From Chthoniobacteraceae bacterium (GTDB taxonomy: Bacteria; Verrucomicrobiota; Verrucomicrobiia; Chthoniobacterales; Chthoniobacteraceae), in contig CANJZW010000022.1 of assembly GCA_947479475.1 (NCBI GenBank), positions 1 to 57,747 on the forward strand: a DNA stretch of 57,747 nucleotides, given 5' to 3'. The notes beneath the pieces were generated by a model, which worked only from the letters and a program-made list of their open reading frames with translations, was not told the origin of the DNA and made no database searches. Positions 6,463-54,597 of the stretch are shown here, in pieces (position 1 is the first letter of the stretch; every line of letters starts with the position of its first letter). The position numbers were made by a program, and so were the translations under genes.

Positions 6463-6709
6463 CAGTTTGAAAAAAGGGGTCTAACAGTATCTGGGCCTCG
6501 GACGATCTTCTAGCCTGAGTTTTTCGAGATTCAATCGCTTGGGAGGCAAGTGTTGCGTTCTCCACGCTTTGAACGGCATGAATGAAGCGTCATTTGTGAT
6601 TTTTCTTCATTTCCCGTTTTCTTAAGGACAGCCTTCAGTTTAGAGCGTGCTTGAATAGGTTAGCTGTATCGCAGATTGTCTCTTTTCTTAGCAGCCCATA
6701 ACTTTAAGG

Positions 6710-17796: not shown

Positions 17797-17801
17797 CGTT
17801 T

Positions 17802-28584: not shown

Positions 28585-30003
28585 TTAGGCGAAAAGGTCG
28601 TGCACGACCCTGCCGTAGACGTCGGTGAGCCGGAAGGGGCGACCGGCGTAGCGAAAGGTGAGGGCTTCGTGGTCAAGGCCCAGGGCGTGGAGGAGGGTGG
28701 CGTGGAGGTCGTGCATGTGGACCTTGTTGACCACGGCGTGGTGGCCCCATTCGTCGGTCTCGCCATAAGCGGTGCCTGCCTTGAAGCCGCCGCCCGCCAG
28801 CCAGAGCGAAAATCCAGCCGGGTTGTGGTCGCGGCCCGTGCCGTTTTTTTCGGCGTAGGGTGTGCGTCCAAATTCGCCGCCCCACCAGACGATGGTGTCC
28901 TCCAGGAGGCCGCGTTGTTCAAGGTCGGCGAGGAGCCCGGCCACGGGGCGGTCGACGGCGAGGGCGTGATCGCCGTGTTTTTTGATGTTGGAGTGCTGGT
29001 CCCAGGCGGGGTTGTTGGTGTTGTCGCCGTAGTTGACCTGGACAAAACGGACGCCTGATTCACAAAGACGCCGGGCAAGCAGACACTGGCGGCCGAAGTT
29101 GTCGGTCGCTTTTTCTCCGATACCGTAGAGGGCGAGGGTTTCGGGGGATTCCCCCTCCATGCCGAGCACGCCGGGGGCGGAACCCTGCATACGCCAGGCG
29201 AGTTCGTAACTGCTGATGACGGCCTCCAATTCAGAGTCGCCCGGTTTTTGGAGGAGTTGTTCGGCGTTGAGTTCGCGCAGCAGGTCGAACTGGCGCCTGG
29301 CCTCCGCGGGGGTGCGCGGGGAGTGAAGGTTGCCGATGGTTGCGCTCGCGGCTGGCACGCCGGCGCGACCGATGGCGGTGCCCTGAAAGACGGGCGGCAG
29401 AAAGGCGTTCCCGTAGTTGCGGGGGCCGCCGTTGCCAAGACTGGGGCTGATGGTGACGAAGGCGGGAAGGTTTTCGTTTTCCGAACCCAGCCCGTAGGAA
29501 ATCCAGGCGCCCATGGAGGGGCGTACGAAGGTGGTTGTGCCGGTGTGAAGAAAGAGGGTGGCCGGTCCGTGGGCGATTCCTTCGGTGTGCATGGAACGGA
29601 TCAAACAGAGTTTGTCCATGTGCATGCACGTTTCAGGAAAAAGGTCGGAGGCCCAGAGGCCGCTTTGGCCATGTTGGGCGAAATTCCAGAGGGGTTTCAT
29701 CACCCTTTGCTGAGGGCTTTTCCCTGACTTGGCCAGGCTGCGCAGGTCCGCGAAGTCGAGCATCCGGCCGTCCTCGGCGAGGAGCTTGGGTTTGTGGTCG
29801 AAGGAGTCCACGTGGCTGACACCCCCCTGCATAAACAAAAAGATGATGCGTTTGGCCCGCGCTTTGTGGCCGGCGGGTTTTGGGGCCAACGGGGCGGGGG
29901 CGGCCTCCGCGCTTCGGGAGGCCATGCCCGCAAGGGCGATCTGGCCAAAACCGCAGGCGAGGGATTGCAGGGCGCGGCGGCGAGAGAAGGGGAGCGCGTT
30001 CAT
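28585..30003 (-). CDS. Tat-exported DUF1501 (sulfatase-like fold) protein
   Basis: The N-terminus has a twin-arginine signal (SRRRALQSL) followed by an Ala-rich stretch. DUF1501 features include RIIFLFMQGGVSHVDSFDHKP near residue 52, SMHTEGIAHGPATLFLHTG, and a C-terminal metal-binding-like GGEFGRTPYAEKNGTGRDHNP. At 472 residues it is of usual length. The fold belongs to the alkaline phosphatase/sulfatase superfamily, but the formylglycine motif CxPxR is absent, so it is not a classical sulfatase. It is almost always encoded next to a DUF1549/1553 protein, as here (39 bases). Confidence 0.92.
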   Translation of the reverse strand: MNALPFSRRRALQSLACGFGQIALAGMASRSAEAAPAPLAPKPAGHKARAKRIIFLFMQGGVSHVDSFDHKPKLLAEDGRMLDFADLRSLAKSGKSPQQRVMKPLWNFAQHGQSGLWASDLFPETCMHMDKLCLIRSMHTEGIAHGPATLFLHTGTTTFVRPSMGAWISYGLGSENENLPAFVTISPSLGNGGPRNYGNAFLPPVFQGTAIGRAGVPAASATIGNLHSPRTPAEARRQFDLLRELNAEQLLQKPGDSELEAVISSYELAWRMQGSAPGVLGMEGESPETLALYGIGEKATDNFGRQCLLARRLCESGVRFVQVNYGDNTNNPAWDQHSNIKKHGDHALAVDRPVAGLLADLEQRGLLEDTIVWWGGEFGRTPYAEKNGTGRDHNPAGFSLWLAGGGFKAGTAYGETDEWGHHAVVNKVHMHDLHATLLHALGLDHEALTFRYAGRPFRLTDVYGRVVHDLFA

Positions 30004-30042
30004 GGGAGGAGGGGGTGAGAGGGGCAGAAGCCGGGCGGCGTT

Positions 30043-32904
30043 TTAGTCGATGTAGCGAAAGTCCAGCGAGGCGAACAACATTTGGTAAAGCTGCGCCCAG
30101 ACTTCCGCCTCGGGGGCGGAGGCGCCGGCCACGAAGCGCTGACAGATGGCGGTTTCCTTCGGAGAAGGCGGCCGGCCGAGGACCTGATGGTAGGCGGCCC
30201 GGATTCTTTCCTGAATGGAGGCGGGGGTTTTGAGGGCGGCTTCCGCCGCGAGCTTGGATTGCTCGAGCAAAAACGGATGGTTGAGAAGGAAGAGGGCCTG
30301 GGGGGCGACGGTGCTGGAATTGCGCTGCCCCATGGTCTGGTTGATGTTCCCGAAGTCAAAGACCTCGAACAATTCCAGCCGTTTGTTGCGGAACGCAGGC
30401 GTGTACACGCTGCGCCGGAAGTCAGCGTATACGTAGTTGTACTCGATGTTCTGGGCCGAGGAATTATTGGCGTCGATATCCCCCGCCCCCGCGATGTTTG
30501 AGCCGCCCAACTGCCGGTCCAACCCGCCACTGACGCTCAGGATGGAGTCGCGGATCTGTTCGGCATCGAGCCGACGGCGGTTGGCGTGGGCGAATAGGCG
30601 GTTTTCCGGGTCGGTTGCCGAGGGGGAGGCGGCAGTCTGCTGCCAGGCGCGGGAGAGGACGATTTCGCGGATCAGCGTTTTCCAACTGCCACCCTCCTCC
30701 ATAAACCGGCCGGCCAGGTAGTCCAGCAACTCGGGGTGTGTGGGTTTTTCCCCGGTAGTTCCGAAGTTGTCGATAGTGCTCACAAGGCCCGTGCCAAAGA
30801 GCCAGTTCCAGACGCGGTTGACCTGCACCCTGGCGGTGAGGGGGTTCTCGCCGCTGGCGATCCAGTCCGCCATCTCTACGCGGCCGCTGGAATCGGGGGG
30901 CAAGGCGGCGGGCGCCTGCGGAAAGGTGACTTGCAAAAAGCCGCGCGGCACCGTTTCCCCGCGCTGCCGTTCGACGCCGCGGATGCGCAGTTGGGCGTCG
31001 AGAATTTTGTCGTCGTCCGCCACGGCCATGGTCAGGTCGCGCACCGGGCCTTCTTTGGAGAGTTTTTTGAAGGCGGCCTCGAGTTCCTTAACCTTGTTTT
31101 TGGCTAGGGTGTCGGGTTTGGAGTTGGCGGGTTCGCTTCTCTGATTGGAGGGGGCGCCTTCCTCGAGGAGCTGCAGGGCGTCCACTGTCACAAAGCCGCG
31201 AGTGTTTTCGTTGCTGATTAGCACGTAGCCGGCGCCGTCCTGCTCAAAACGGAATTTGCCCAGGGAGATAAAACGGCCCTCGAGGGGAGGGGGCTGGGTC
31301 TGGTCGACAAAAACGGTGTCTTCCCCGTCGGCGTGGAGGATGTTTACCCGGACGTTGGTGGCGCGCCCATCCGCGTGTGTGTAGGCGAGGCGTACCTCGT
31401 AGCGGCCTGCTTTCGGGATGGTGGGGGTGAAGGTGATGGTTTTTTCGCCCTTGCCCGAGTTGTCATCGCTCAAATACCCCGCGCCAATGAAACTGCGGAC
31501 GAAGGTGGATTTTTTCCAGACGCCGACCACCTTTGCCTCTAAATCATCGAGCACGATTCCCTGCAATTCGGCGGCGGCGACGGGCATGCCGGGTTTGGTG
31601 GTGGGCGAGCTTACGAGTTTGGCGGCGTTTGTGGCTTCGGTCTGGGCGGCGTCGATCTGCTTGCGCAGGGCGGCGAGGCGTTCCTCGTGGAGTTTGAGTT
31701 CCGCCTCGCGCGGGCCTTCCTCGGGTAGCGGGGTGGTGATCCAGCGGGCTACGTTGTCTGTGTAGTTGAAGAGCGTGCGGGTGGAGGCGAAGACGCCCGC
31801 GAGTGCGTAGTAGTCTTTTTGGGAGACGGGGTCGAATTTGTGATCGTGGCAGCGGGCGCACCCGAGAGTCTGGCCCAGGAAGGCGCGACCCACCGTTTCG
31901 ATTTGTTCGTCGATCACGTCGAAGCGCAGTTGCTGCTTGTCTTGTTCCTCGTAGTTGGTGGGGCCGAGCGCCAGGAACGCGGTGGCGGCAAGGTGGCGTC
32001 TGCGGTCGGCGGGAGTGGCGGCAGGGAGGAGGTCGCCGGCGACCTGTTCGCGCACGAATTGGGGGAAGGGTGTGTCGGAGTTAAAGGCGGCGATGACGTA
32101 GTCCCGGTAGCGCCAGGCGTCTTTAAAGAGAAGGGTGCGTCCGCCGCCGCTGGATTCGGCGAAACGGGCGACATCCAGCCAGTGCCGGCCCCAAGTCTCC
32201 CCAAACTGCGGACTTGCCAGAAGGACGTCGGTAAGTCGGGCGAGTGCGGCCTGGCGGTTCTGGGCGGCTTCCTTGAGGAAGGCCTCTGTTTGTTCCTGAG
32301 TGGGTGGAAGGCCGACAAGGTTCAGGTATAGGCGGCGTACCAAGGGAAGCAGGGGAGCGTCCGGAGCCGGTTGGACGCCGGCGGCTTCCATGCGCGCCAG
32401 CAGGAAGTGGTCGAGGTTTGAGCGGGGCCAGTCCTTGGCGCGCACTTCCGGAAGCGCGGGCTTTTGGACGGGGGCATAGCTCCAGAATTTTCGGCCTTCG
32501 GTGAGGCTGAGGCCGGTCTGTTTTTTGACTTCCTTCGCTTCGGTGCGTGGGTCGGGAGCGCCCATCTCAACCCAGGTTTTGAGGATGTCCGTTTCCTGGG
32601 GGGAAAGCCGCTGTTTGGGCGGCATCTGAAGGTCTTTGTTTCCGTAATGAACGGCCTCGATGAGCAGGCTTTTCTCAGGATTTCCGGGCACAATGGCGGG
32701 CCCGGAATCGCCGCCTTTGGCCCAGCCCTCGCGCCAGTCGAGGCGAAGACCGCCTTTCACCTTCGCCTCTGCGCTGTGACATTCCATGCAACGTTCGACA
32801 AGAAGGGGACGAACCTTTTTCTCAAAAAAATCAGTCGCCGGTTCCGCCCCGGAGACAACGAGAGGGGCGAGAAAAAAAGCAAAGGTGAAGGATCGCAGCG
32901 TCAT
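30043..32904 (-). CDS. DUF1549/DUF1553 protein with N-terminal cytochrome-like domain
   Basis: A 953-residue exported protein. After a signal peptide ending near VVSGA comes a planctomycete-type cytochrome C domain with heme motif CMECH at 39-43. DUF1549 follows (HWLDVARFAESSGGGRT), with a second CxxCH (CARCHDHKFDP). Around residues 480-580 there is a beta-rich insert (YEVRLAYTHADGRATNVRV and SLGKFRFEQDGAGYVLI) resembling golvesin/xylanase-type carbohydrate-binding domains. DUF1553 closes the protein (RVQVNRVWNWLFGTGLV, HPELLDYLAGRFM). The partner DUF1501 gene is directly downstream. The pair is generally thought to act on complex carbohydrates, possibly by redox chemistry. Confidence 0.93.
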   Translation of the reverse strand: MTLRSFTFAFFLAPLVVSGAEPATDFFEKKVRPLLVERCMECHSAEAKVKGGLRLDWREGWAKGGDSGPAIVPGNPEKSLLIEAVHYGNKDLQMPPKQRLSPQETDILKTWVEMGAPDPRTEAKEVKKQTGLSLTEGRKFWSYAPVQKPALPEVRAKDWPRSNLDHFLLARMEAAGVQPAPDAPLLPLVRRLYLNLVGLPPTQEQTEAFLKEAAQNRQAALARLTDVLLASPQFGETWGRHWLDVARFAESSGGGRTLLFKDAWRYRDYVIAAFNSDTPFPQFVREQVAGDLLPAATPADRRRHLAATAFLALGPTNYEEQDKQQLRFDVIDEQIETVGRAFLGQTLGCARCHDHKFDPVSQKDYYALAGVFASTRTLFNYTDNVARWITTPLPEEGPREAELKLHEERLAALRKQIDAAQTEATNAAKLVSSPTTKPGMPVAAAELQGIVLDDLEAKVVGVWKKSTFVRSFIGAGYLSDDNSGKGEKTITFTPTIPKAGRYEVRLAYTHADGRATNVRVNILHADGEDTVFVDQTQPPPLEGRFISLGKFRFEQDGAGYVLISNENTRGFVTVDALQLLEEGAPSNQRSEPANSKPDTLAKNKVKELEAAFKKLSKEGPVRDLTMAVADDDKILDAQLRIRGVERQRGETVPRGFLQVTFPQAPAALPPDSSGRVEMADWIASGENPLTARVQVNRVWNWLFGTGLVSTIDNFGTTGEKPTHPELLDYLAGRFMEEGGSWKTLIREIVLSRAWQQTAASPSATDPENRLFAHANRRRLDAEQIRDSILSVSGGLDRQLGGSNIAGAGDIDANNSSAQNIEYNYVYADFRRSVYTPAFRNKRLELFEVFDFGNINQTMGQRNSSTVAPQALFLLNHPFLLEQSKLAAEAALKTPASIQERIRAAYHQVLGRPPSPKETAICQRFVAGASAPEAEVWAQLYQMLFASLDFRYID

Positions 32905-33305: not shown

Positions 33306-34367
33306 TCAGCGGAGGGGTGCCTCGCGTTTGATTTCGGAAAACGAACCGCCGCCACCCGCACTCGCGAGGACGCGTTTGAGAGCCTTTTCGGTTTCGGGAA
33401 GCACCCCGACGCCTACGAAAAAAACCTTCGCCCGGAATGGTTGGGAGGTTTGCAGGCGGACAAGGGTTTGCTCGAGTTCGGGGATTGGAATGGTCGAGGC
33501 GATGCCAGTGCCTCGCTGCATACTACCGTCGGAGAGGATAAAGATGGCATCCGGCTGCAGTTTGAAGACGGCTTCCAGTGCGACCAGAAATCCTGGGCTT
33601 CCGCTGACGACGTTGGGAAGACCGCGAGGCAGGGCGCCTTCGGTTGCAAAAAAGGAATGTAACCAAGTGATCGCAGCTTTCCGGTTTGTACTCGTGCTAG
33701 GTACGAGTTCGGTCCGGAAAAAGGCGTAATTCCGGGCGAATTCCACCAAACCAAAACGCGTATTGACCCCTAGCTCCTCGACCAAACGCGCGGTTTCATC
33801 CCGAATTCGTTCCATGGGCATTCCTGCTTTCGCGGCCGCCCCTGCCACGGTTTTGGAGATGTCAAACATCAGAACGATGCGCTTGGCTTGAGTCTGAACG
33901 CCCAGGAAACTGACTCCTGTTCCGGCTCCTCCCGCGCCGCCGCCGCCCGAGCCGATTCCCGATCCCGCGCCGGCCGCGAGTGCGCTTGCCTCAGAGTAGA
34001 AAGAGGCGCTTAGCGCGCCGGGTTCCATGGAGGGCGGGGAAAAAGAGGGAAGCCGTGGAAGGTCTGGCAGCGCGAGGGCGCTTGCGCGCGTGCTTTGGAT
34101 GCGGTCGGTGAAGGCCGTTTTTTGCGCGGCCCCCTCCGAGGCAGCCGCCTGCATGGTCTGCTCACGCACTTTGGCCGGCGACTTTGGATGCGGTTTTGCT
34201 GTCAGGATGGGCGGTGGCTGCGGTGGGGTGGAAAAATGTTTGGCTACAATCCAGACTCCCGCCAGAACGGCAAGGCCGGCGTGGAGGGCGAGGCTCACCC
34301 CGAGGACCGTCATCGCCAGGCGGCGGCGTTCACTGCGGCCGGTCTTCGCACCTTCGTCAATTTTCAT
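33306..34367 (-). CDS. TonB-like membrane-anchored VWA-domain protein
   Basis: A 353-residue protein with one N-terminal transmembrane helix (about 18-42). Within it Ser25 and His29 repeat the S-x-x-x-H spacing that TonB uses to couple with ExbB/ExbD. A Pro/Lys-rich stretch (PPQPPPILTAKPHPKSPAK) and a Ser/Ala/Gly-rich periplasmic linker follow to about 150. A VWA domain then starts: RIVLMFDISKT supplies the metal site DxSxT (Asp169, Ser171, Thr173), and AIFILSDGSM gives the later Asp. The TonB C-terminal domain is absent. It overlaps the second exbD gene by ATGA, so it belongs to that operon. Role inferred: an energised envelope effector or adaptor that binds protein through VWA. Confidence 0.82.
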   Translation of the reverse strand: MKIDEGAKTGRSERRRLAMTVLGVSLALHAGLAVLAGVWIVAKHFSTPPQPPPILTAKPHPKSPAKVREQTMQAAASEGAAQKTAFTDRIQSTRASALALPDLPRLPSFSPPSMEPGALSASFYSEASALAAGAGSGIGSGGGGAGGAGTGVSFLGVQTQAKRIVLMFDISKTVAGAAAKAGMPMERIRDETARLVEELGVNTRFGLVEFARNYAFFRTELVPSTSTNRKAAITWLHSFFATEGALPRGLPNVVSGSPGFLVALEAVFKLQPDAIFILSDGSMQRGTGIASTIPIPELEQTLVRLQTSQPFRAKVFFVGVGVLPETEKALKRVLASAGGGGSFSEIKREAPLR

Positions 34368-34804
34368 GGGAGCTCCCCCTGCGCCCCTGCGAAGGTGACC
34401 TGAGTAATTCCCACCTGCGCGCAGATATTCAGGACATCGACGATGCGCTGGTGTTTGGCGCGGTCTGCGGCTTCGAGGATGACCAAGGCCTGTCCTTTGT
34501 TGGCCCGGGTGCTTTGCTCGTAGCGGGCAAGTACCGCGCGCAAGCGGGGAAGTTCGGTGCTTTCCGGGGGCTCGAGGGGTTCCTCGTTGAGGACAATCTG
34601 CCCGGACTCAAGAATCTCCACCCTCTGCTCATCGGGAAGTTCGAGAGGCTCCTCCTGGGAGACGGTGCCGGGAAGGTTCACGCCGATGTCTGCCTCCGGT
34701 TGGACGGGTTTGGAGGTGAGGATATAAAAAAACAGAAGCAAAAAACAGACGTCAATGAGCGGTGCGATCTGCATTTCCACCTGGGGATGTTCCGTCCTTT
34801 TCAT
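34364..34804 (-). CDS. ExbD/TolR family protein (second copy)
   Basis: A 146-residue biopolymer transport protein. A short cytoplasmic start leads into IAPLIDVCFLLLFFYIL, where Asp18 is the protonatable residue conserved in ExbD/TolR. The periplasmic domain is acidic (EEPLELPDEQR, EEPLEPPEST) and ends with the ExbD fold (ALVILEAADRAKHQRIVDVLNICAQVG). The ATG at 34804 overlaps the stop of the preceding exbD by ATGA, and its own stop overlaps the VWA gene in the same way, so translational coupling is likely. The open frame reaches upstream to 34996, but that part is a shadow of the first exbD. Confidence 0.9.
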   Translation of the reverse strand: MKRTEHPQVEMQIAPLIDVCFLLLFFYILTSKPVQPEADIGVNLPGTVSQEEPLELPDEQRVEILESGQIVLNEEPLEPPESTELPRLRAVLARYEQSTRANKGQALVILEAADRAKHQRIVDVLNICAQVGITQVTFAGAQGELP

Positions 34805-35223
34805 CGTTTGCGCACTCCGTAGACGACCTCGGCGGCGCCTGCATCCGCGGCAAGGTTCATCAGTTCCTTGATGCGCGCAGCCGGTGTGGAGGCATCGGCG
34901 CGGACTTGTAATTTCAGAGGAGGGTGGTTTTTGAAACGCGCCTTCAAATGGGAGGCGAGTTCGGCGGTATTGACGCGCTGCTCGCCAGTGAACCAATCGC
35001 CGTTGGCGTCGACGTTGATGACATCGCGGTCACCTGTGTTTTGAGGCGTGCTCGCTGAACTGGCGATGGGCACCTGGATGGTTTTAAGCCGGGCACTTTT
35101 GGTCAATTTGCCAGACAGCATGAAGAAAAAGAGGAGCAGCAGGGTGACGTCAATCATCGGGGCAATTTGCAGGCCCACTTCCTCATGCGTCACGCGGCGG
35201 ATACGGCGGCGGCCGGCGGTCAT
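34801..35223 (-). CDS. ExbD/TolR family protein (first copy)
   Basis: A 140-residue protein with a basic N-terminus (RRRIRR) and the helix IAPMIDVTLLLLFFFML. Asp25 matches the essential Asp25 of E. coli ExbD. The periplasmic part contains LKLQVRADASTPAARIKELM, the typical ExbD fold in which strand and helix alternate. Two different ExbDs in one operon suggest a heteromeric stator, as in TolR/ExbD-like machines of other phyla. It starts 57 bases after the exbB stop. Confidence 0.92.
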   Translation of the reverse strand: MTAGRRRIRRVTHEEVGLQIAPMIDVTLLLLFFFMLSGKLTKSARLKTIQVPIASSASTPQNTGDRDVINVDANGDWFTGEQRVNTAELASHLKARFKNHPPLKLQVRADASTPAARIKELMNLAADAGAAEVVYGVRKR

Positions 35224-35280
35224 GTTTGAAGAGTCATTTCAAAACGCGGTTTCATGGTGCGGACCATCCTTTAGAGTCGC

Positions 35281-36030
35281 TCAAACGGATTGGAGGGCTG
35301 GGGGCGGGGTGCCGTGGGCCTCCCCGGTAAAGCGATCGAGCATGTGGGACAGGGTGGCGTGAACGTCCGCCATGTTTGCGGCAATCAAACCGCGGAAGGC
35401 GAAGTAGAGGAACATTGAAGGAATGGCCAGAAGCAGACCGCCACCCGTCGCCACAAGCGCTTCGCCAATGCCTTTGGCAAGATCGGCGGCCTCGGCTTTT
35501 CCTGCGGTGAGGGCGCTAAAACTGTTGATCATGCCTGAAACGGTTCCCAGCAGGCCGATCATCGGGGCAAGCACGGCCAGAGTATTGAGGTAGTTGACGG
35601 TCGCCATCATCTTGGTTTCGGTGCGGAAACATTCGTCGGCGACGGCGTTTTCCATGGCGGGTTTGTTGTACATGTCCCTCTCGTAGTTAGCCTTCATGAT
35701 GGCGGAGGCAAGGGCGTGGGTGAGGGGGCCGGGATTGGTCTGGCAGCACCGGTAGGCCTGCTCGAGGTCTTTGCGGGAGAGCATTTCATTGAGGCGTTCG
35801 ACCAATGCACTCGGAAGCAGGCGATTCTTGCGATACGTGAGCCAGCAGAAAACAGCCAGCGCCAGAGCTGCGACAGAACACAGCGCAATGAGATGCATGA
35901 CAGGTCCGCCTTCTCCGTAAAGGTCGAGGAGGCTTTTGCCGGTTTCAGTCCCGGCTGCGTTTGCGGCGTTTGGGAGCAGCGGCAGGAAGATCAGAATCTT
36001 TGTGAGAATCGGAGTGTACTTTTTTTTCAT
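35281..36030 (-). CDS. ExbB/TolQ/MotA family proton-channel protein
   Basis: From the ATG at 36030 this is a 249-residue protein with an N-terminal hydrophobic signal (ILIFLPLLPNAANA), as in long-form ExbBs. A transmembrane helix about 45-65 (LIALCSVAALALAVFCWL) comes next, then a long cytoplasmic helical part. Two more helices hold the family core NTLAVLAPMIGLLGTVSGMI and GEALVATGGGLLLAIPSMFLYF. With ExbD it would form the ion-driven motor. Its 5' end overlaps the preceding gene by 86 bases. The frame is open to 36150, but that would extend the overlap and bury the signal. Confidence 0.92.
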   Translation of the reverse strand: MKKKYTPILTKILIFLPLLPNAANAAGTETGKSLLDLYGEGGPVMHLIALCSVAALALAVFCWLTYRKNRLLPSALVERLNEMLSRKDLEQAYRCCQTNPGPLTHALASAIMKANYERDMYNKPAMENAVADECFRTETKMMATVNYLNTLAVLAPMIGLLGTVSGMINSFSALTAGKAEAADLAKGIGEALVATGGGLLLAIPSMFLYFAFRGLIAANMADVHATLSHMLDRFTGEAHGTPPPALQSV

Positions 36031-36997
36031 TGGGATTCGGGCTTTTCCGCGTCTGGGTAAGGTCGAGCGAGGCTGGAGCTGGCCATCTGGGGTCGGGCTC
36101 CCGGATTTCAGAAGGCAGACCTTCCAGAAACAGGGTGGCTTTTGTGGCAAAAGCTGAGCCTGGAAAAAACGCGATCAGATCGCGGGCCGTTTCTGCCGCG
36201 AGTGAAAGTTGTCCGCACCGGCGGTGAATCCCCAGAGCGCCCCAGAGGCCTCGCATGGCGAGTTCGGGAGAACCTCCCGGCAGGAGCGCGGCTTGCAGGA
36301 ACAGGTCGAGCGTTTTGTGGTAAAGGGCGTTGCGTTCGGGCCGCACGTTGTCGTCTTCCTCCCAGCGCGGGTTTTCCTCGAGCAAATGGATAAGCGCCGC
36401 CTCGTTTGCCGCGGCAAGAACGAGCCGTGCTTCCGCCGCCAAGCAGGCTCCTATGTCTGCCTTTAAAAGTGCCTCGGCTTCCGCAACGGCCTCGGCGCTC
36501 AGGCCCAACATTGTCCACGCTCTGAGTCGGCCCTGGATGCCTGCTTCGTGTTCGCGCGCATCGGTAGCTTCGTGGGCGACCCGCGAAAATACGGACAGTG
36601 CTTCAGCGGAGGACGGCAGCCTCCCTTCCTCCAAAAGCGCCAAGCCAAAACGCAGGCCGATTCTTCCTCCAGGGGAGGACGCTACAGGAAGCAGCGGAGC
36701 AAATTTTTCCCAGAGGGAGCGGAGTTCCGTGATCTGGAGTTTGCTTGCCTCGCGGAGCCACTTTTCGCGTTGAGGGTCCGGTCCGAATTCAAGGGAGGCC
36801 GTTTGTTTCCTTGGGAAAGAAAGGACAAAGGGAGGCAAATCTGCAACCGGTTGGGAGACAAGTAGCAGGTTTTCACCTTCAACACCGGCAATGCGGCAGA
36901 CTCGGCGTTCTCCGTTTTTGAGAACCACGACATCCGCGGCCTGGCACAGAAGGGTTGAGCCCAAGAGCACGGCGAACCACGCGCTGAAAAAGTTCAT
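35945..36997 (-). CDS. Exported hypothetical protein of the ExbBD operon
   Basis: A 350-residue protein with a signal peptide (FFSAWFAVLLGSTLLCQAA). A short beta-rich part follows (VVVLKNGERRVCRIAGVEG), resembling the SH3-like segment found before TPR regions. The rest is helical and TPR-like (about 80-310), with repeated Ala/Leu/Glu-rich helix pairs. The C-terminus is very basic (APKRRKRSRD). It overlaps the upstream TPR gene by ATGA and the downstream exbB by 86 bases. The last 28 codons are therefore shared with exbB in another frame, and a shorter true end through sequence error cannot be excluded. I do not recognise a named family. Confidence 0.75.
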   Translation of the reverse strand: MNFFSAWFAVLLGSTLLCQAADVVVLKNGERRVCRIAGVEGENLLLVSQPVADLPPFVLSFPRKQTASLEFGPDPQREKWLREASKLQITELRSLWEKFAPLLPVASSPGGRIGLRFGLALLEEGRLPSSAEALSVFSRVAHEATDAREHEAGIQGRLRAWTMLGLSAEAVAEAEALLKADIGACLAAEARLVLAAANEAALIHLLEENPRWEEDDNVRPERNALYHKTLDLFLQAALLPGGSPELAMRGLWGALGIHRRCGQLSLAAETARDLIAFFPGSAFATKATLFLEGLPSEIREPDPRWPAPASLDLTQTRKSPNPNEKKVHSDSHKDSDLPAAAPKRRKRSRD

Positions 36998-39816
36998 TCT
37001 ATCTCCCCCAGTAAAGCGAGACGATGATCGGCCTGTGCCATTTCAGGAAGTTCAGCGGGCAAGCCAGCCTCCCTCATTTCCCGATAGGTGCGGCGTGCAG
37101 CGGTTTTGTCCCCGAGTTTTTCAAAGGCCTCGCCGCTGCGCAGGTAAGCCTTGGCCACCGTTTTTTTCCAGCGGCCGTACATCACATAGACCCGCTGGTA
37201 GTAGGGAATGGCTGTTTTGGGTTTGCCCAATTGCATTTGGTTTTCCGCAAGGAGGAGCAGGGCTTCTGATTTAAATTCGCCTGAAGCGCCGCGTGCGAGC
37301 AGCACGGATTGGAGGCTTTGTTCGGCCTCTTTCCTGTCGCCGTTGGCTTCCTGGATCAGGGCTTTGCTCAGACCAACACGCCCTGAGAGCGGGGAGTCCG
37401 CGCACTCGCGCTCGAATCGGCAGGCAATCTGAAGCGCTTTGTCCGGTTCCCCGGATTGTTCGGCTTCGAGCATCAGGGCCGCGAGCGCGCGGTCTTTGAG
37501 GACGGAGCGTGGGTGCCATTTGAGCATTTCCCGCCAGAGCAGCGCCGCTTGGGTTGCCTGACCGCTTGAGGTGCAGGCTTCGGCGATGTCCGATAGGATG
37601 CGGTCGCTGGTCAAATGCGGCTGCATTTTGAGGCGGGCCGTCAGTAGTAGTTGCTGAGCCTCGAGAGGGGAGGTTCGACTCAGGGCCCTGGCGAGGCCCC
37701 ACTGGGCGCGGAGGGCGGCGGTTCCTTGCGGGGCTTGGGCTGTGGTTTCAGTCGCCCACAGGCGTAAATCCGAGGTTCGTTGCTCAGCGGGAATGGCTTT
37801 GGCAAAGAGGGTTGCGAGAGAGTCTAGCAGGCTTTCCACGGCTGGGACGTTAGGATCGTTTGCATGTTCGGTGATGACCTCCCAAGCCAACCGGGTGGAC
37901 GCCTCGCTTTGGCCAAGTTCAATCCACCACTTGCAGGCCCACAGAACGGCGTCTGAATAACGCGGGCTTTGAAGGCGCTGCTGCGCGAAGCGTTCCAAAT
38001 GCGAGGCGATTTGTTCGGAGCGGCCCAGGGTTTTGAGAAGTTTTGCGGCTTTAAACCAACCTTCCTCGAATGCGGCGGGATTAGAGGTCGGGATATTTTG
38101 CAGTGTAGTCAGAGCGGGCTCGGTGTCCTCTGTGGCGAGTTGTGCCTCCGCGAGCAAAAGGTGTGCTTCGCCAGCTTTTGGGTCTTCGGGAAAGGTCTCG
38201 AGAAGGGAACCCAGTTCGGTGATTGCCAAAGCGTAATCGTGCTGGGCGTGGGCGGCCCTTGCGTTTTGGAAAAGCACGGCAGAACGATTGGGGCCGTCCG
38301 GGTAGCGCGCCAAATACTCGGCGGCGGCGGTTCGACACTTCTCGGGTTGTTTGCCGACGGCGTAGGCCACACAGAGCCAATGGGCGGCCTCCTCCGCCAG
38401 TTCGTGTTTGGCACTCTGCTTTAGAAACCCTGCAAATTGAAGTGCGGCGAGGTTTGCATCCCCCGACATCAACAGAGTGAAGGCGCGCATCAATTCAGCG
38501 CGGCGGGCAATGTCGGATTTTGGATAGACGCGGACGATGGTTTCGAAGGTTTTCAGGGCTTCGGCAAAATGCCTTTCCTTTTGGTGGGCGACGCCCTTGA
38601 GAAAAAGCACCGTTGGGAGGTTTTGTGGTTTGGAAAACGTTGCGCAAAACAGAGTCGAAACCGCGTCCACATGGCTCCAGCATTCGAGTTCGCTCCAGAG
38701 TTGCATGATGGAAATTCCGGCCTGTTCCATGGAAGGCTCCGAGGGATGCTTTTGGATGGCCTGGGTAAGGATCAGAGCCGCTTCCCTAAAACGCTGCAGC
38801 CCCTGATAAGCGGCTGCTACTCGCAGTAGCACGGCGGCATCGAAGGCCCCGCATTCCTTCAGCGTTTGAAGCTCAAGACGGATGCGTTCCCCCGATTGTT
38901 TGAGCATGGCTTTCGAGCTGGCGGCAGACGGACCCGAAAAACCCGCGCCCTCTTTTTCAATCCACAACAGCTGGGACTCGGCGAACTCCAGAATGGTTTG
39001 AAACGGGCGGATTTGGTAGAGGCCTATCAGCGCATTCCTGAACTGGCCCTGCTCTAGAAGATGGCTTGCCAGCCGTAGAAGCGTGTTTTGAAAGCCAACC
39101 GCTTCGAAAGAATCTTGAAGCAGCAGCTTTTCCTTTTGAACCAGTGCCAGAGCCGGCTCCAACTGACCGGCTTCGATGCGTGTGCGAATTTCCTGAAGCA
39201 GTGCCTGAGGTGCGTGGAACGAGTCGAGGAGCGGCCGGCTAGCCTTAAGGCGCTCCGCGGCCTCAGCGGGGTTTCCCGAGAGCAGTTCGGTTTGTGCCAG
39301 CAGCAGGTGGGCTTGTTGAAACTGCGGGCCAGCTGTGCAAAACGTCAAAAACTGCTCCAGGCTCGCCCGTGCTCTTTGATAGTCGCCGAGACTCAACATG
39401 CAGAGTCCCTCTTGAAACTGCAGCTCCTGTCGCAGGGCGGGGGAGAGGGGAGGGTTTGCGTTCAGCGCGCGTTGCAGGGGAGCTAGGGCGTCTTGAAAAC
39501 GGTTTTGATGTAGCAGGGCGAGTGCGAATGCCGGTTGGAAGCGTTTTGCCACCGCTTCCGTTTCGGGCCGGCCTCCGAAGTCGCGGCTGTAAGCGGAGTA
39601 AGCGTCCGAGGCCTCTTTCCAGCGGCTCTGAGAGAGAGCTCTGGCTGCCTGAGACAGATATTCCTCTGCGGTCCCGTTCAAATCAGGCTGGCTAGCCGCT
39701 GGTGGAGTCGCTTCGGCTGCCACCGTTTTTGTGCGCGGATTCCCCTTTGCATCCACGCATGGAACGCAGAAAAACAAGCCTGTGAAAAAGGAGATAAGAA
39801 ACAGGGGAAGGCGCAT
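36994..39816 (-). CDS. Large exported TPR protein, first gene of the ExbBD/VWA operon
   Basis: A 940-residue protein with signal peptide (LPLFLISFFTGLFFCVPCVDA). Nearly the whole length is made of tetratricopeptide-type helix pairs, for example KEASDAYSAYSRDFGGRPETEAVAKRF near residue 66 and ALTTLQNIP in the middle, with a C-terminal set like that of YbgF/CpoB-type proteins (KPKTAIPYYQRVYVMYG and YLRSGEAFEKLGDK). TPR proteins in ExbBD or Tol operons usually organise partners in the periplasm. The gene is divergent from the RapA-like gene and begins a run of six genes, four of them joined by ATGA overlaps or longer ones. Confidence 0.88.
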   Translation of the reverse strand: MRLPLFLISFFTGLFFCVPCVDAKGNPRTKTVAAEATPPAASQPDLNGTAEEYLSQAARALSQSRWKEASDAYSAYSRDFGGRPETEAVAKRFQPAFALALLHQNRFQDALAPLQRALNANPPLSPALRQELQFQEGLCMLSLGDYQRARASLEQFLTFCTAGPQFQQAHLLLAQTELLSGNPAEAAERLKASRPLLDSFHAPQALLQEIRTRIEAGQLEPALALVQKEKLLLQDSFEAVGFQNTLLRLASHLLEQGQFRNALIGLYQIRPFQTILEFAESQLLWIEKEGAGFSGPSAASSKAMLKQSGERIRLELQTLKECGAFDAAVLLRVAAAYQGLQRFREAALILTQAIQKHPSEPSMEQAGISIMQLWSELECWSHVDAVSTLFCATFSKPQNLPTVLFLKGVAHQKERHFAEALKTFETIVRVYPKSDIARRAELMRAFTLLMSGDANLAALQFAGFLKQSAKHELAEEAAHWLCVAYAVGKQPEKCRTAAAEYLARYPDGPNRSAVLFQNARAAHAQHDYALAITELGSLLETFPEDPKAGEAHLLLAEAQLATEDTEPALTTLQNIPTSNPAAFEEGWFKAAKLLKTLGRSEQIASHLERFAQQRLQSPRYSDAVLWACKWWIELGQSEASTRLAWEVITEHANDPNVPAVESLLDSLATLFAKAIPAEQRTSDLRLWATETTAQAPQGTAALRAQWGLARALSRTSPLEAQQLLLTARLKMQPHLTSDRILSDIAEACTSSGQATQAALLWREMLKWHPRSVLKDRALAALMLEAEQSGEPDKALQIACRFERECADSPLSGRVGLSKALIQEANGDRKEAEQSLQSVLLARGASGEFKSEALLLLAENQMQLGKPKTAIPYYQRVYVMYGRWKKTVAKAYLRSGEAFEKLGDKTAARRTYREMREAGLPAELPEMAQADHRLALLGEIE

Positions 39817-47705: not shown

Positions 47706-50138
47706 TCACCGCCGCATGATGAGATTTCCCATCGCTTTCGGGTCTTTAAATTTCGTGCCGCTGGGGAAGAGCATGTAGAACTCAGGCACGTTGCCGGCCA
47801 TGCGTTGGCGGCAGATGTTCACGCCCCAGGGGTAGGCTTTGCTGGGGACTTCGCCTTCGATGGGCTTCGCCTCAATAAGGGCCTCGACGAACCACCGATC
47901 GGCTGCCTTTTTGACGACGATGTTTTTCACGGTGTAGAAGCTGGCCAGGTCTTCGGAGCGTGTGGTGATGCATTCATCGAGCACGGTTCCGTTGGGATTG
48001 ATCACGATGAAGGGGCGGATGCCCTTGGCGGTTTCGAGTCGGATCTCGACGGTGTCGTCGTTGAAGATGGCATAGCTGTCGCGGTCTTTGCAGTCGGCGC
48101 GGAGTTTGTCCATCTTGGGCTCCATGCACTCAACGGCGACGACTAGGGCGCTATTGTCCTGCAGCCACCGGAAGGCGACTTTGGTGGAAACGTGATGCGG
48201 TGTCTCGCCGCTAAATAGGTCGCGCAAGGGCGTGAAGACGCGGCCTTCGTCGGTCCAGAAGGGTTTGGTGAAGTCACCATCGATCTTGGGCGGAAGATAC
48301 GACCAATAGCCGGCGATCCCACCGTTGTCGCGTTGGAGGTTGGCAAAGAGTCCCTTCAGGGGCTCCATTTCGGCTTCAAGCAATGCGATGCGCTTTGTGT
48401 AGATGCTGTCGCCGGTCTTGGCCTTCGCAGTGGTGATCAGTGCGAAGAATTGATCGATGTCGGCTTGCTTGAGGAAGCCGCCATTGGCAGTGACTTCCCG
48501 CGCTTCGGGTCGCGACCACACGGCTTCGCCGAACTCATGGAACTGCTTCATTTCGGCATGCGCGGGGCCGAAGAACACGCGGTAGTATTCGTCCAGCGTG
48601 GCCTGCATGTCGAGGTGGCGGTCCCACATCATGCGGGCGTGGAGGTAGATCATGAGGTGCGACAAGCCTGGACGACGCAGGTTGTGGGTCGCGTCGGGTT
48701 TGATCTCATTGCTGGGAATCCACGGCACTTCGATGTCGTAGCCGACGGCGTGGTCATAGGCAGCATTGAGATTGGCCTGCATGATCTTGGTGAAGAACAC
48801 GGGCACGGGCGGGGCGTGGCGGATGACCGCCTGCTGTAGGTAGTGGTCCATGATGAGGAGTTGCTCACGTCCGTCCTTCATGCGCTTGAGCCATTCTTTG
48901 CGCAGCTCGAGATTGCCATTCCATGGCGGCAGCATCCAGGCGGTGCTGTGCTGCATGAGGCCGACGAGCACGCTGTCGGGAATTTTGTCGATGGTGGTCG
49001 GCGGCATCGTGGTGCCGCTGTAGGCCATGACGGTGAACTTGCGCTCCGGGAGCTTGGCGCTGATGCGCTTTACAATGTCGAGATTGAAGTCCCAGGCGTA
49101 GTTGCTGAAGTTGCCGTAGATGCCGCGCTCGGTCTGCTCCCAGCCAGCGGCGACGTCCGCGCTGTCGATGGAAGACCAGCCATCGGGCTGCCCGAGGCTG
49201 TCGTACTCGATACCGGGATAAACTTGCCGCGTGAAGTCGAGCGAGGTGATGAAATCGGAGCGCAGCTTTTCGCTGTTGAGCCTGGGTGAGTTATAATTGG
49301 GCTTGCCATTGATGATGCCGAAGTAGGCGGGGTCAGCCTCTTTGCCAAAGTAGGTGAGGCGGCCCACGGCATGGTAGATGGGGATGACCTTGCTGGTGCC
49401 GACGCCCATGGATTTATACCACATCATTTCCTGTCTGTAGGTGCCAGGCTGGTTGTTGTCGAAACGGCGCTGCCCGAACTCCGGCTCCTTCTTCAACGAC
49501 TGCTCGGCGATGCGGATGCTATCGTGGTGTGGTCGGATCAGCCCGAGTTCTTCATCCGGCAGATACCAGCGCATTCCGAACTGCTCCAGCAAGCCGAACA
49601 CGGCATACAACGTGCCCGTGGCATCGTACAACGTGAAGCCGCAAGCCTTGTTCAATGCGCCACCGCCATAGAAACTCGGTGTGCGCCACTTATGACCAGT
49701 CATTGTTTCCCAGGTTTTCTGCGAAAGGTCATGCGCTCGGTCAGTGTATGGCGCGAAATGGTTCTGCGAGTGAAACACGTCTCGCCCGATGAGCACGACG
49801 TGATGGTCCTTCACGATAATCTTGTAACCATCGAACTTCACATCATCGACGCTGATGCCAAGCTTCTGCGTGTGTTCGCTTGCGCCGACATAGATGTGAT
49901 TTGGTGCATCGCTTGGTTTGTCCACGATGGAAAGTGTCGCACCAGACATCGCCAGCAAATGGCGCTGGAGTTCTTCGGCAGCGGTGCGCGTGGCCTTGAT
50001 TGCATCGGCAGAGATGACGATGTCCGCGACAGGCTTGCCGTTGTTGACGAGATCAACAGCTTGAGCTGGCAGCGCGACAAAGAGGCTGAGGGCAGTCAGC
50101 AGGAAAGTGCGAAGGGTATTTGGAGAGGGGGTTTGCAT
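47706..50138 (-). CDS. Exported DUF4838 protein with C-terminal CBM9-like domain (copy A)
   Basis: An 810-residue protein with a signal peptide ending ALPAQA. Residues 35-110 resemble the N-terminal domain of alpha-glucuronidases and hexosaminidases (TAAEELQRHLLAMSGATLSIV). DUF4838 covers about 240-500 and is probably a barrel; QPDGW at 317-321, WDFN near 349 and E470 (YDIEVPW) are shared with copy B and are candidates for active-site residues. From about 619 (DGDFTKPFWTDEG) to the end lies a beta-sandwich like carbohydrate-binding family 9 (DDTVEIRLE, FIVINPNGTVLDE). The activity is not established. It follows a TPR-like gene by 26 bases. Confidence 0.88.
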   Translation of the reverse strand: MQTPSPNTLRTFLLTALSLFVALPAQAVDLVNNGKPVADIVISADAIKATRTAAEELQRHLLAMSGATLSIVDKPSDAPNHIYVGASEHTQKLGISVDDVKFDGYKIIVKDHHVVLIGRDVFHSQNHFAPYTDRAHDLSQKTWETMTGHKWRTPSFYGGGALNKACGFTLYDATGTLYAVFGLLEQFGMRWYLPDEELGLIRPHHDSIRIAEQSLKKEPEFGQRRFDNNQPGTYRQEMMWYKSMGVGTSKVIPIYHAVGRLTYFGKEADPAYFGIINGKPNYNSPRLNSEKLRSDFITSLDFTRQVYPGIEYDSLGQPDGWSSIDSADVAAGWEQTERGIYGNFSNYAWDFNLDIVKRISAKLPERKFTVMAYSGTTMPPTTIDKIPDSVLVGLMQHSTAWMLPPWNGNLELRKEWLKRMKDGREQLLIMDHYLQQAVIRHAPPVPVFFTKIMQANLNAAYDHAVGYDIEVPWIPSNEIKPDATHNLRRPGLSHLMIYLHARMMWDRHLDMQATLDEYYRVFFGPAHAEMKQFHEFGEAVWSRPEAREVTANGGFLKQADIDQFFALITTAKAKTGDSIYTKRIALLEAEMEPLKGLFANLQRDNGGIAGYWSYLPPKIDGDFTKPFWTDEGRVFTPLRDLFSGETPHHVSTKVAFRWLQDNSALVVAVECMEPKMDKLRADCKDRDSYAIFNDDTVEIRLETAKGIRPFIVINPNGTVLDECITTRSEDLASFYTVKNIVVKKAADRWFVEALIEAKPIEGEVPSKAYPWGVNICRQRMAGNVPEFYMLFPSGTKFKDPKAMGNLIMRR

Positions 50139-52149: not shown

Positions 52150-54597
52150 CTATCGTTTGTTCGTCGTGATGTTTGCCATCATCTCGAAATTCTTGTTGAA
52201 CGCCTTGCCTGTCGGCGAAAGCTGGTAGAACTCGGGTTTGTCTCCGGCGAGTCGCTGATGCGAGATCTGAACGCCCCAAGGCGCCGAGACATTGGGGATG
52301 ACCGCACCAAGGGAAGCGTAGTCAATCCGGATCTCGATGGACCACTTGTCGGGGTATCTCTGGACTGCATAGTCACTCACGCTGAAGAACGCCGGCAGGT
52401 TCGCTACGTTCGGGTCGGTAGTGTCCTGGTCGAAAATGGTGCCAGCCGGGTTAATGTTGATGACAGGCATGCGACCGTTCGGCGTTTCCAGCCGGATTTC
52501 CACAAAATCATCGGCCCATATGCCCGAGTCGTCGCGTGTCTTGGTGCGGTCGCGGAGGCTGCTCATCTTTGGCTCGCGGCACTCGATGGCGATGTAGAGG
52601 GCGGTCGGCGTGGCGCGGAACGCAACGGAGGTGGAGACATGGCCGGGCTTAACACTGGTAAACATGTCCTTCAGCGGAGTGGTTGGCACGCCCTTCCAAA
52701 AAGGTTTGGATAGATCACCGTCGCACTTGATGGTTTCGGCGATGCGGCCGGCCTGGATGGTCGGACCCTTGCGATTGAGGTTGGCGAACAGCTTTTTGAG
52801 GGGCTCCATCTCGTCGGCGAGGCGGTCTAGCCTTTTGGCATAGATGCTGTCGGTCGCGGCTTTTGCGCGGGCCTTGCCGAAGATGTCGAAGAGCTTCGTC
52901 ACGTCTTCCTCCTTAAAGTTTCCGGAGGACGCCGTCACGCGACGGGGCGCTTTCCGCATCCATATTTCCTCGCCGAACTTATCCAGCGCCTTCATCTCGT
53001 CCGCGGCGGGGCCGTAGTAGAGCGTGTAGTATTCCGCGAGCAGCTTGTCCACATCCACTGCCGGATTCCACATCAGTTTTGAGTAGAGATACATCATGAG
53101 ATGCGTCTGTGCCGGGCCGCCTATGTTGGTGTTGTGGTTTTCGGCTTTTGTAACGCCACCAAAGGGGGCGTCGTATTCGAGAAGGAATCCCTGGCACTTG
53201 TCGGGCGTGACGTTTTTGAAGAGCTGCTTGAGGTTATCCGTGAAAATATATGGGGTCGGTGGATAGTTGCGGTGTGGGCCGCGGTCATAGAGGTAGTCGT
53301 AATAGATGAACTGTTCCGGCTCTTTGACGCACTTGAACCATTCTTTCATGACGGCGGTAAACGCAGAGTTCATGTGGTCATAGGCCGTTGTGTTCGCGAA
53401 GACGCAGGTCATATCCGCCGGGATGGACTTGCCGATGAGCTGGCTGGGAACGCCGACCGTGCCGGAGTAAGCGTAAAAGGCTTTGCGCTGTTTGTTGCCG
53501 GGATACTTGTGGTTGTATCGCTCGAGCATGTTGGCATTGAAATCCCATGCGTAGTCGCTGTAGCGCCCGTCATCGCCGCGCTCTTTCAGTTTGTCCCATC
53601 CGTTTGCGACATCTTCGTCGTCGATGGTGCTCCAGCCGTCCGGCTGGTTGAAGCTGATATACGGGAGCATCTTCGGGTAGAAGGTATTGGCGGACTCGAG
53701 ATACTGTAGAAACGTTGAGCGAAACTTTTCGCCTGAGAGCTTCGGTGCGCGGAAATCGGTCTTGCCGTTGACTTTTCCGGCGCACTCGGGGTCTTCTTTG
53801 CCGTCGAGGATACGCCCTGCGGCATGGTAAAAAAAGATGAGTTCGCTCATCCCTCCGCCAAGCGACTTGAACCACATGGATTCATCGCGGCTGCCGCGCC
53901 AGTGGCTCCAATTGCGGTAACGAAAGGCCGGTTCGCTCTTGATGTCCTGATCGGCAACAGAAATATCCTTCTTTTCGGGGATGACCTGCCCGATGTCGGC
54001 GAACGGCATATACCAGCGGAACCCGAGTTGTTCGAGCAACGCGTAGGCGGCAAAGAGGGTGCCGGTGGAATCAATGCCATCGTGAAAGCCAAGGCTCCGC
54101 GACGCATCTTTTTCGCGACACTGGTTGTGGAGGCCCTCCATGAACATTGGCGAGCGCCATTTGTGGCCGCCGGTGTGCTTCAGCCATCTGTCTTCAACCC
54201 GGTAGAGGGTGTCTTCACTGAGGCCGTAGTATTTATACCATTCGACATCGACCCCTGCCGCGATGATGTTGTCGCCTTTGACGATGATCTTGTAGCCGTC
54301 GAATTTGACGTCTTTGAGATCCAACCCGAGTTTTTTCGTCATCGCGTTTTCGCCGAACCAGACCTTGGTCTTCACCTTGCCGGTCGGTTCGTTCACAATA
54401 TCGAGTTTGGTGCCCGACATCTTGGTGATGATGGCCTGAAACTCCGTTGCAGCCGTCTTCACGATCGGATTGGCGTCATTCGGGAGGATGATTTCAGCAG
54501 TCGCCTTGCCGTCCTTCACGATTGGCGCTGCGGAAAGGGGCGCCGAGGAACAGAATGTCAGTAGCAGGAGGGTGAGGAGTTTTGGGGTGTCTTTCAT
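52150..54597 (-). CDS. Exported DUF4838 protein with C-terminal CBM9-like domain (copy B)
   Basis: An 815-residue paralog of the 47706-50138 product with the same order of domains: signal peptide ending PLSAA, hexosaminidase-like N-terminal domain (VKTAATEFQAIITKMSGTKLD), DUF4838 core with QPDGW at 318-322, WDFN near 351 and E474 (FLLEYDA), and a CBM9-like C-terminal part (CDGDLSKPFWKGV, DDFVEIRLETPNG). Sequence identity to copy A is moderate and spread over the whole length, so duplication is old or the two came together from elsewhere. It begins 16 bases after the esterase gene. Confidence 0.88.
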   Translation of the reverse strand: MKDTPKLLTLLLLTFCSSAPLSAAPIVKDGKATAEIILPNDANPIVKTAATEFQAIITKMSGTKLDIVNEPTGKVKTKVWFGENAMTKKLGLDLKDVKFDGYKIIVKGDNIIAAGVDVEWYKYYGLSEDTLYRVEDRWLKHTGGHKWRSPMFMEGLHNQCREKDASRSLGFHDGIDSTGTLFAAYALLEQLGFRWYMPFADIGQVIPEKKDISVADQDIKSEPAFRYRNWSHWRGSRDESMWFKSLGGGMSELIFFYHAAGRILDGKEDPECAGKVNGKTDFRAPKLSGEKFRSTFLQYLESANTFYPKMLPYISFNQPDGWSTIDDEDVANGWDKLKERGDDGRYSDYAWDFNANMLERYNHKYPGNKQRKAFYAYSGTVGVPSQLIGKSIPADMTCVFANTTAYDHMNSAFTAVMKEWFKCVKEPEQFIYYDYLYDRGPHRNYPPTPYIFTDNLKQLFKNVTPDKCQGFLLEYDAPFGGVTKAENHNTNIGGPAQTHLMMYLYSKLMWNPAVDVDKLLAEYYTLYYGPAADEMKALDKFGEEIWMRKAPRRVTASSGNFKEEDVTKLFDIFGKARAKAATDSIYAKRLDRLADEMEPLKKLFANLNRKGPTIQAGRIAETIKCDGDLSKPFWKGVPTTPLKDMFTSVKPGHVSTSVAFRATPTALYIAIECREPKMSSLRDRTKTRDDSGIWADDFVEIRLETPNGRMPVININPAGTIFDQDTTDPNVANLPAFFSVSDYAVQRYPDKWSIEIRIDYASLGAVIPNVSAPWGVQISHQRLAGDKPEFYQLSPTGKAFNKNFEMMANITTNKR

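Follow-up and report, generated by a model that had tools for sequence, protein, structure and literature searches.

A six-gene operon and its conservation

The window analysed here, a stretch of 57,747 nucleotides from a Chthoniobacteraceae bacterium (contig CANJZW010000022.1, assembly GCA_947479475.1), carries on its minus strand an operon encoding two tetratricopeptide-repeat (TPR) type proteins, an ExbB/TolQ-type channel subunit, two ExbD/TolR-type proteins (ExbD1 and ExbD2) and a protein with a von Willebrand factor A (VWA) head (Table 1). An earlier note, made from the sequence alone, had placed six genes at these positions with TPR proteins of 940 and 350 residues first, and the open reading frames (ORFs) agreed. 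The operon probably represents a proton motor of the TolQR/ExbBD type together with its own TonB-like force arm, whose VWA head is exchangeable. This was the best reading because a helix His of the arm was invariant among relatives, the motor residues were kept, the gene order was conserved and the same idea has been published (PMC12204202).

Table 1. Genes of the operon and the anchor module within its last gene
Feature	Position	Strand	Evidence
Large TPR protein (940 aa) opening the operon; signal-like N-terminal segment	36994-39816	minus	ORF; many Pfam TPR families; same place in relatives
Small TPR-like protein, 350 aa	35945-36997	minus	ORF; AlphaFold2 (AF2) model
ExbB/TolQ-type channel subunit, 249 aa from the ATG at 36030; overlaps the preceding gene	35281-36030	minus	PF01618, E 6.6e-24
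ExbD1, ExbD/TolR-type	34801-35223	minus	PF02472, E 7.7e-19
ExbD2, ExbD/TolR-type, distinct from ExbD1	34364-34804	minus	PF02472, E 4.9e-19; alignment A6
Putative VWA force-transducer protein, 353 aa	33306-34367	minus	ORF; AF2 model; PDB VWA matches; anchor profile, E 3.1e-29
Anchor module (helix and conserved linker), common to proteins with other heads	34047-34337	minus	Match to profile A3

ATGA overlaps were found at three junctions, between the two TPR genes, between ExbD1 and ExbD2, and between ExbD2 and the VWA gene, the last of which had been described before. The ExbB open frame extends upstream of the ATG, to 36150. The features of an ExbB/ExbD proton channel were all present (PF01618, PF02472, the channel Thr and the channel Asp), and the channel Asp of ExbD2 (D17 of A6) was invariant in 20 of 20 aligned sequences. 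The small TPR-like protein matched no family in Pfam or NCBIfam; its AF2 model (mean predicted local distance difference test score, pLDDT, 85.7) places five strands at residues 22-70 and helical repeats at 75-299, and a fold search gave weak matches only, mostly to TPR proteins and none at E 0.001.

Conservation was followed in a set of 57 genomes that included the window's own, 30 of which contained a sequence matching the VWA protein, in some cases through the anchor alone. The complete order (large TPR, small TPR, ExbB, ExbD1, ExbD2, VWA) was shared by the window and 14 fetched relatives (L031-L037, L041, L042, L044, L046, L047, L048 and L068, with a contig end clipping the large TPR or the VWA gene in some), so that the gene order is conserved among relatives. 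Contig ends cut a further six loci (L039, L040, L043, L045, L055 and L066). The VWA gene directly followed the small TPR gene in L038, L116 and L117, with the ExbB-ExbD-ExbD genes missing between them, and L053, L054 and L057 had the large TPR gene, a small protein resembling the second TPR protein by eye and the VWA gene, again without the motor. Because the VWA gene keeps its TPR neighbours even where the motor is missing nearby, the TPR proteins are the best candidate partners of the arm. The 18 named relatives were metagenome-assembled genomes, mostly called Chthoniobacteraceae, Chthoniobacterales, Spartobacteria or Verrucomicrobia, with a few other Verrucomicrobia names; the nearest was 81% identical.

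The VWA protein and its anchor

The VWA protein consists of a helix (residues ~9-46), a linker (~47-150) and a VWA domain (~152-350). Its single N-terminal helix bears Ser25 and His29, contains no Asp within residues 9-46 and is followed by a Pro/Lys-rich stretch, all but the lack of Asp having been noted previously. The protein matched no Pfam family up to E 1, and hence no TonB C-terminal domain (PF03544), and none in NCBIfam. An AF2 model built on 16 sequences (the window and 15 related loci) had a mean pLDDT of 76, with residues ~150-350 mostly above 90. Foldseek matched this model to 39 PDB chains at E up to 0.001, including the inter-alpha-inhibitor heavy chain, the CLCA1 VWA domain, the factor B A domain, the LapA vWFA domain and vWF A3, and the sequence profile of the 16 orthologues reached the VWA-bearing ITIH4 at E 2.1e-4, next to weaker or unrelated chains. 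Judged from the model, the C-terminal head is a VWA fold, as had been called by eye, although Pfam misses the domain.

The metal loop of the head reads D169-I-S171-K-T173 and a later loop contains D280, so the residues of the DxSxT site reported for the protein are in place. All 16 aligned orthologues had D169 and D280, and in two of them S171 was replaced by Ala. The usual metal-ion-dependent adhesion site also has a loop-2 Thr of the GGT type, which was seen by eye in just one orthologue (L048) and was not evident in the other 15. With this Thr in 1/16 and Ala for S171 in 2/16, 'intact' is too strong a word, and from its residues the site would be only partly canonical at most.

An N-terminal alignment revealed that the helix and a linker of ~70 residues were common to proteins with unrelated C-terminal parts. 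The linker elements were E-H-K-x-x-M, M-S-A-P and L-P-x-x-P-x-x-P, not every member having all three. With a limit of E 0.001, the resulting anchor profile (A3) found anchors in 41 of the 57 genomes. Of 67 such places in the relatives, 56, spread over 37 genomes, reached E 1.4e-12 or better, and the other 11 were weaker. Classification covered 61 of the 67, whilst six weak ones that an ORF search did not re-find were excluded from the counts (G033:C22, G028:C240, G015:C80, G054:C19, G023:C73 and G027:C2). Several of these six show an S-x3-H helix by eye, and the one at G023:C73 (L104) bears a DUF4159 head. In a sample of the phylum, anchors were present in at least 81 of 288 genomes at E 1e-5, at most 17 candidates being scored per genome.

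The helix His was found in all 61 classified anchors from the relatives and in 23 of 24 from the phylum sample. The profile itself contains the His and so favours it, but a match draws on ~98 columns. The sole exception (L144, Gln) has no motor gene nearby. The Ser was present in 51/61 anchors of the relatives (otherwise Val in six, Ala in three and one cut) and in 18/24 of the phylum sample, so that the helix motif proposed for the orthologues was conserved at its His and less so at its Ser.

The motor side was compared with ExbB of the Ton system, using ExbBs above 150 bits and leaving out the duplicate named loci L107-L124. Equivalents of ExbB Ser34, Thr148, Thr181 and Pro190 were found in 60 of 60 sequences, Ser52 being the Ser34 equivalent of the window's ExbB. 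Thr148 is taken here to have a channel role. The contact network of TonB Ser16 and His20 includes Ser34 and Pro190 (PMC12215075).

Different heads on the anchor and co-occurrence with ExbD2

Heads were classified with profiles starting after the linker, because the Gly-rich linkers merged nearly everything in a pairwise clustering of heads; the profile seeds were themselves among the classified proteins. The 61 anchors of the relatives comprised 25 with VWA heads, 22 PA14-like, eight squalene-cyclase-like, one DUF4159 and five that were cut off. The VWA gene lay mostly beside the motor, an arrangement on which the earlier note had made its reading depend (19 of the 25, with four beside TPR genes only and two beside neither; one of these two, L039, starts at a contig end). 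PA14-like heads were beside the motor in nine cases, beside TPR genes only in two and beside neither in 11; for the squalene-cyclase-like heads these numbers were one, none and seven. The 24 anchors of the phylum sample included 15 with VWA heads (13 beside the motor), eight PA14-like (one) and one squalene-cyclase-like (beside the motor).

Pfam backed the squalene-cyclase-like heads through SQHop_cyclase_C (1.5e-08, L067) and the DUF4159 head through its own family (2.1e-20, L099). PA14 scores were lower, the best being 1.4e-05 (L125, the sole one scanned above the cut-off), followed by 6.3e-05 (L085) and by values from 1e-4 to 0.2. L065, L077, L137 and L138 had no PA14 score and were PA14-like by the profile of this analysis alone. 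The PA14-like alignment (A2), searched against PDB sequences, matched nothing, and the PA14 label accordingly depends on Pfam for part of the members and on the profile made here for others. The interchangeable heads thus labelled appear to include VWA, PA14-like and squalene-cyclase-like domains and perhaps DUF4159; the last is a tentative assignment, DUF4159-headed proteins matching the anchor profile at E 9e-5 or weaker.

In L125 (6022-9238) two arms lie behind a single motor operon, one with a VWA and the other with a PA14 head; their anchor-linker stretches are identical at 133/137 residues and 385/411 bases. Seven genomes of one family (f32) had from at least 5 to at least 16 anchors each. 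Seven anchors read outside the motor loci of two genomes, G090 and G104, were all PA14-like by the profile made here, and the anchor inside a motor locus of this set (L160) was VWA-like. A further anchor of the window's own genome lies on a different contig (L077, 8849-10096); it is PA14-like by the same profile and has no adjoining motor gene. It seems rather likely, if with less assurance than the motor-coupled arm itself, that the anchor serves generally for docking on one type of ExbB-ExbD1-ExbD2 motor, with interchangeable heads, and that one motor drives several heads per cell, including heads encoded far away.

The same variation of heads behind a constant anchor and motor, like the anchor-rich genomes of f32, would also suit a surface or glycan-handling system, in which the heads bind ligands and the motor powers the uptake, release or movement of different ligands or surface structures. 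PA14 is usually a carbohydrate-binding domain. However, orphan-anchor loci read by eye had no consistent neighbour and no common function among those inspected, and many PA14-like heads had no strong PA14 score or none at all, and we regard such a system as unlikely.

Two side observations concern these anchors. The L077 orphan adjoins FtsH-like and protein-kinase-like genes (by eye). In L137-L142 (G090 and G104, at least 15-16 anchors per genome) some of the proteins that were PA14-like by the present profile have an added SHD1 domain.

ExbD2 proteins of this system cluster in a group of their own (A6), and their distribution was compared with that of strong anchors, defined as E up to 1.4e-12 in the 57 relatives and 1e-5 in the 288 phylum genomes, a few genomes belonging to both sets; ExbD2 was called at 120 bits or more. 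Both were present in 37 relatives, the strong anchor only in none, ExbD2 only in one (G014) and neither in 19, and the corresponding phylum numbers were 79, two (G087 and G325), four (G057, G084, G229 and G274) and 203, figures uncorrected for shared ancestry, which inflates them, and obtained with profiles built partly from these genomes. In all 10 relatives with an anchor never within 3 kb of ExbD2, ExbD2 was encoded elsewhere, and among the genomes without a strong anchor it was found in 1/20. The window's genome has a second ExbB-ExbD1-ExbD2 motor on another contig (L145, 7171-8961), beside which no TPR or head genes of the VWA-arm system were detected. On one contig (L118) two ExbB/ExbD sets lie close together (169-2122 and 5098-7719), one of them with a VWA anchor.

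These data bear on whether the VWA protein is simply a membrane-anchored neighbour that makes no contact with the motor, its S-x3-H being incidental. Among 246 N-terminal hydrophobic segments encoded by other genes at the fetched loci (TonB/TolA proteins included), 11 had this spacing, and some VWA genes stand apart from the motor. On its own S-x3-H is therefore weak evidence; it gains significance from its conservation and the conserved operon. Chance was rated highly improbable, as His and linker are conserved, the gene order is conserved and anchor and ExbD2 co-occur even when unlinked.

Several further results weigh against a motor-coupled arm. Six of the 25 VWA-headed anchors had no adjoining motor gene and 20 of 51 ExbD2 genes, that of L145 among them, no adjoining anchor; some of these genes lie near contig ends. 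Four genomes with weak anchor matches only (G023, G027, G028 and G031), all counted above among the 19 with neither, were without ExbD2 at 120 bits, a cut-off picked after the scores had been seen; at 110 bits the relatives were distributed 37/0/4/16 (both, anchor only, ExbD2 only, neither) and at 150 bits 36/1/1/19. Ser25 is not invariant, and the TPR partner is suggested by gene neighbourhood alone. The four-residue motif S-x3-H-x6-L-x3-S (SHLS; PMC12215075) is not kept at its Leu and second Ser: the position seven residues after the His was Ala in 76/85 anchors and that at +11 was Val, Ile or Thr in 85/85, the window's protein having Ala36 and Ile40 there and so not the full motif. An equivalent of ExbB Trp38, which contacts TonB Ser16/His20 (PMC12215075), was found in 0/60 ExbBs. 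Lastly, PMC12204202 states that no deletion phenotype has been reported for VWA force transducers. With half of SHLS kept and Trp38 absent, the docking site would be similar, not identical, to that of TonB.

Comparison with known systems and proposed mechanism

Williams-Jones et al. (2025; PMC12204202) described VWA 'force transducers' in the Planctomycetes-Verrucomicrobia-Chlamydiae (PVC) group, encoded in the order TPR, tolQ-like, two tolR-like and VWA, and predicted a complex of such an arm with the motor. The window operon is a good member of this published kind, matched by description to its Tichowtungia-type family. As in that family, a TonB-like helix and a disordered linker carry a VWA head in place of the TonB C-terminal domain, and in PVC bacteria the gene follows TPR, tolQ-like and two tolR-like genes; the window differs in having two TPR-type genes and only the Ser and His of SHLS (PMC12204202). 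Because SHLS is ascribed there to 'many' VWA force transducers, the full motif is not strictly required for the class. The TPH-VWA family of the same article also has a VWA fold beside a TolQ homologue; its VWA proteins bear a TolR-like Asp helix and are encoded without ExbD genes, whereas the helix in the window has no Asp and is accompanied by two ExbDs (PMC12204202).

The main text of PMC12204202, supplements apart, contains no mention of PA14, squalene, DUF4159 or prenyltransferase, and exchangeable heads thus go beyond what was found described there. Among open-licence PMC papers, no further one was found to treat the VWA arm by title or abstract, and the available part of PMC12505986 does not mention VWA. 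No report of interchangeable heads was found in these papers, where the sole match was, to judge from its title, on glycoside hydrolases, an absence that does not prove them unpublished.

The Ton system shares with the window the ExbB/ExbD motor, an N-terminal S-x3-H helix and a Pro-rich linker, whereas the window has a VWA head, two different ExbDs and TPR genes, and is without the SHLS Leu and Ser and the ExbB Trp38. The operon had also been supposed to replace TonB. As a statement about the genome this was rejected, since TonB_C occurs at three places in the same genome and ExbD at nine.

Tol-Pal (TolQ-TolR-TolA) likewise combines a motor with a Ser/His helix, and the TPR protein CpoB belongs to it. 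It is possible, if doubtful, that the operon is a Tol-Pal-like envelope system, in which motor and VWA arm move a partner bound to the outer membrane or peptidoglycan in growth or division and the large TPR protein is CpoB/YbgF-like. This protein exceeded the NCBIfam cut-offs of tol_pal_ybgF (119.6 vs 90.1 bits) and, narrowly, BamD/YfiO (83.1 vs 81.4), although both models respond to TPR repeats generally. For the window's ExbB the TolQ model gave a slightly higher score (68.1) than the ExbB model (62.2), and neither came anywhere near its NCBIfam cut-off. None of the six proteins matched a TolA, TolB or Pal model, in particular no Pal- or TolB-like gene being found among the six operon genes with Pfam and NCBIfam, a search that did not extend to the rest of the genome.

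For the motor-coupled arm, the following mechanism is proposed. The helix of the VWA protein would dock on the outside of ExbB through its Ser and His, like TonB and TolA, and proton flow via ExbB/ExbD would move or stretch the arm. The linker would span the periplasm and the VWA head would grip a protein; the likeliest candidates are the two secreted TPR-type proteins, or else something that these hold. One motor probably serves several arms with VWA, PA14-like or squalene-cyclase-like heads. The idea that proton flow moves a VWA domain holding a partner is in this way retained as a motor-coupled arm, modified by the absence of two SHLS residues and of Trp38 and by VWA being one of several heads.

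The transmission could in principle run the other way, the VWA protein acting as a sensor that informs the ExbBD channel of the state of the envelope and gates the flow of protons. Tension in the TonB linker could be signalled via His20/Ser16 to ExbB (PMC12215075), and the same residues fit either direction. No signalling domain was recognized in the six operon proteins with Pfam or NCBIfam, however, and a variety of heads behind a single motor suits effectors no less well, which makes a sensor decidedly improbable.

TonB and TolA are the best-known arms driven by ExbBD/TolQR motors, and the window adds a clear member of the VWA-headed class predicted in 2025 (PMC12204202). If the arm is modular, as the survey suggests, a single motor could serve a wide range of tasks in the periplasm. 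Modularity also makes the class testable, through head swaps and the comparison of many-headed genomes.

Elsewhere in the window, a bacterial alpha-2-macroglobulin (1965 aa) lies beside a penicillin-binding protein with BiPBP_C (15556-23699), which is a known pairing. A PSCyt1/PSCyt2/PSD1 cytochrome-like protein and a DUF1501 protein (28585-32904) form a pair that is usual in Verrucomicrobiota. Two DUF4838 proteins of ~810 residues are encoded near each other at 47706-50138 and 52150-54597.

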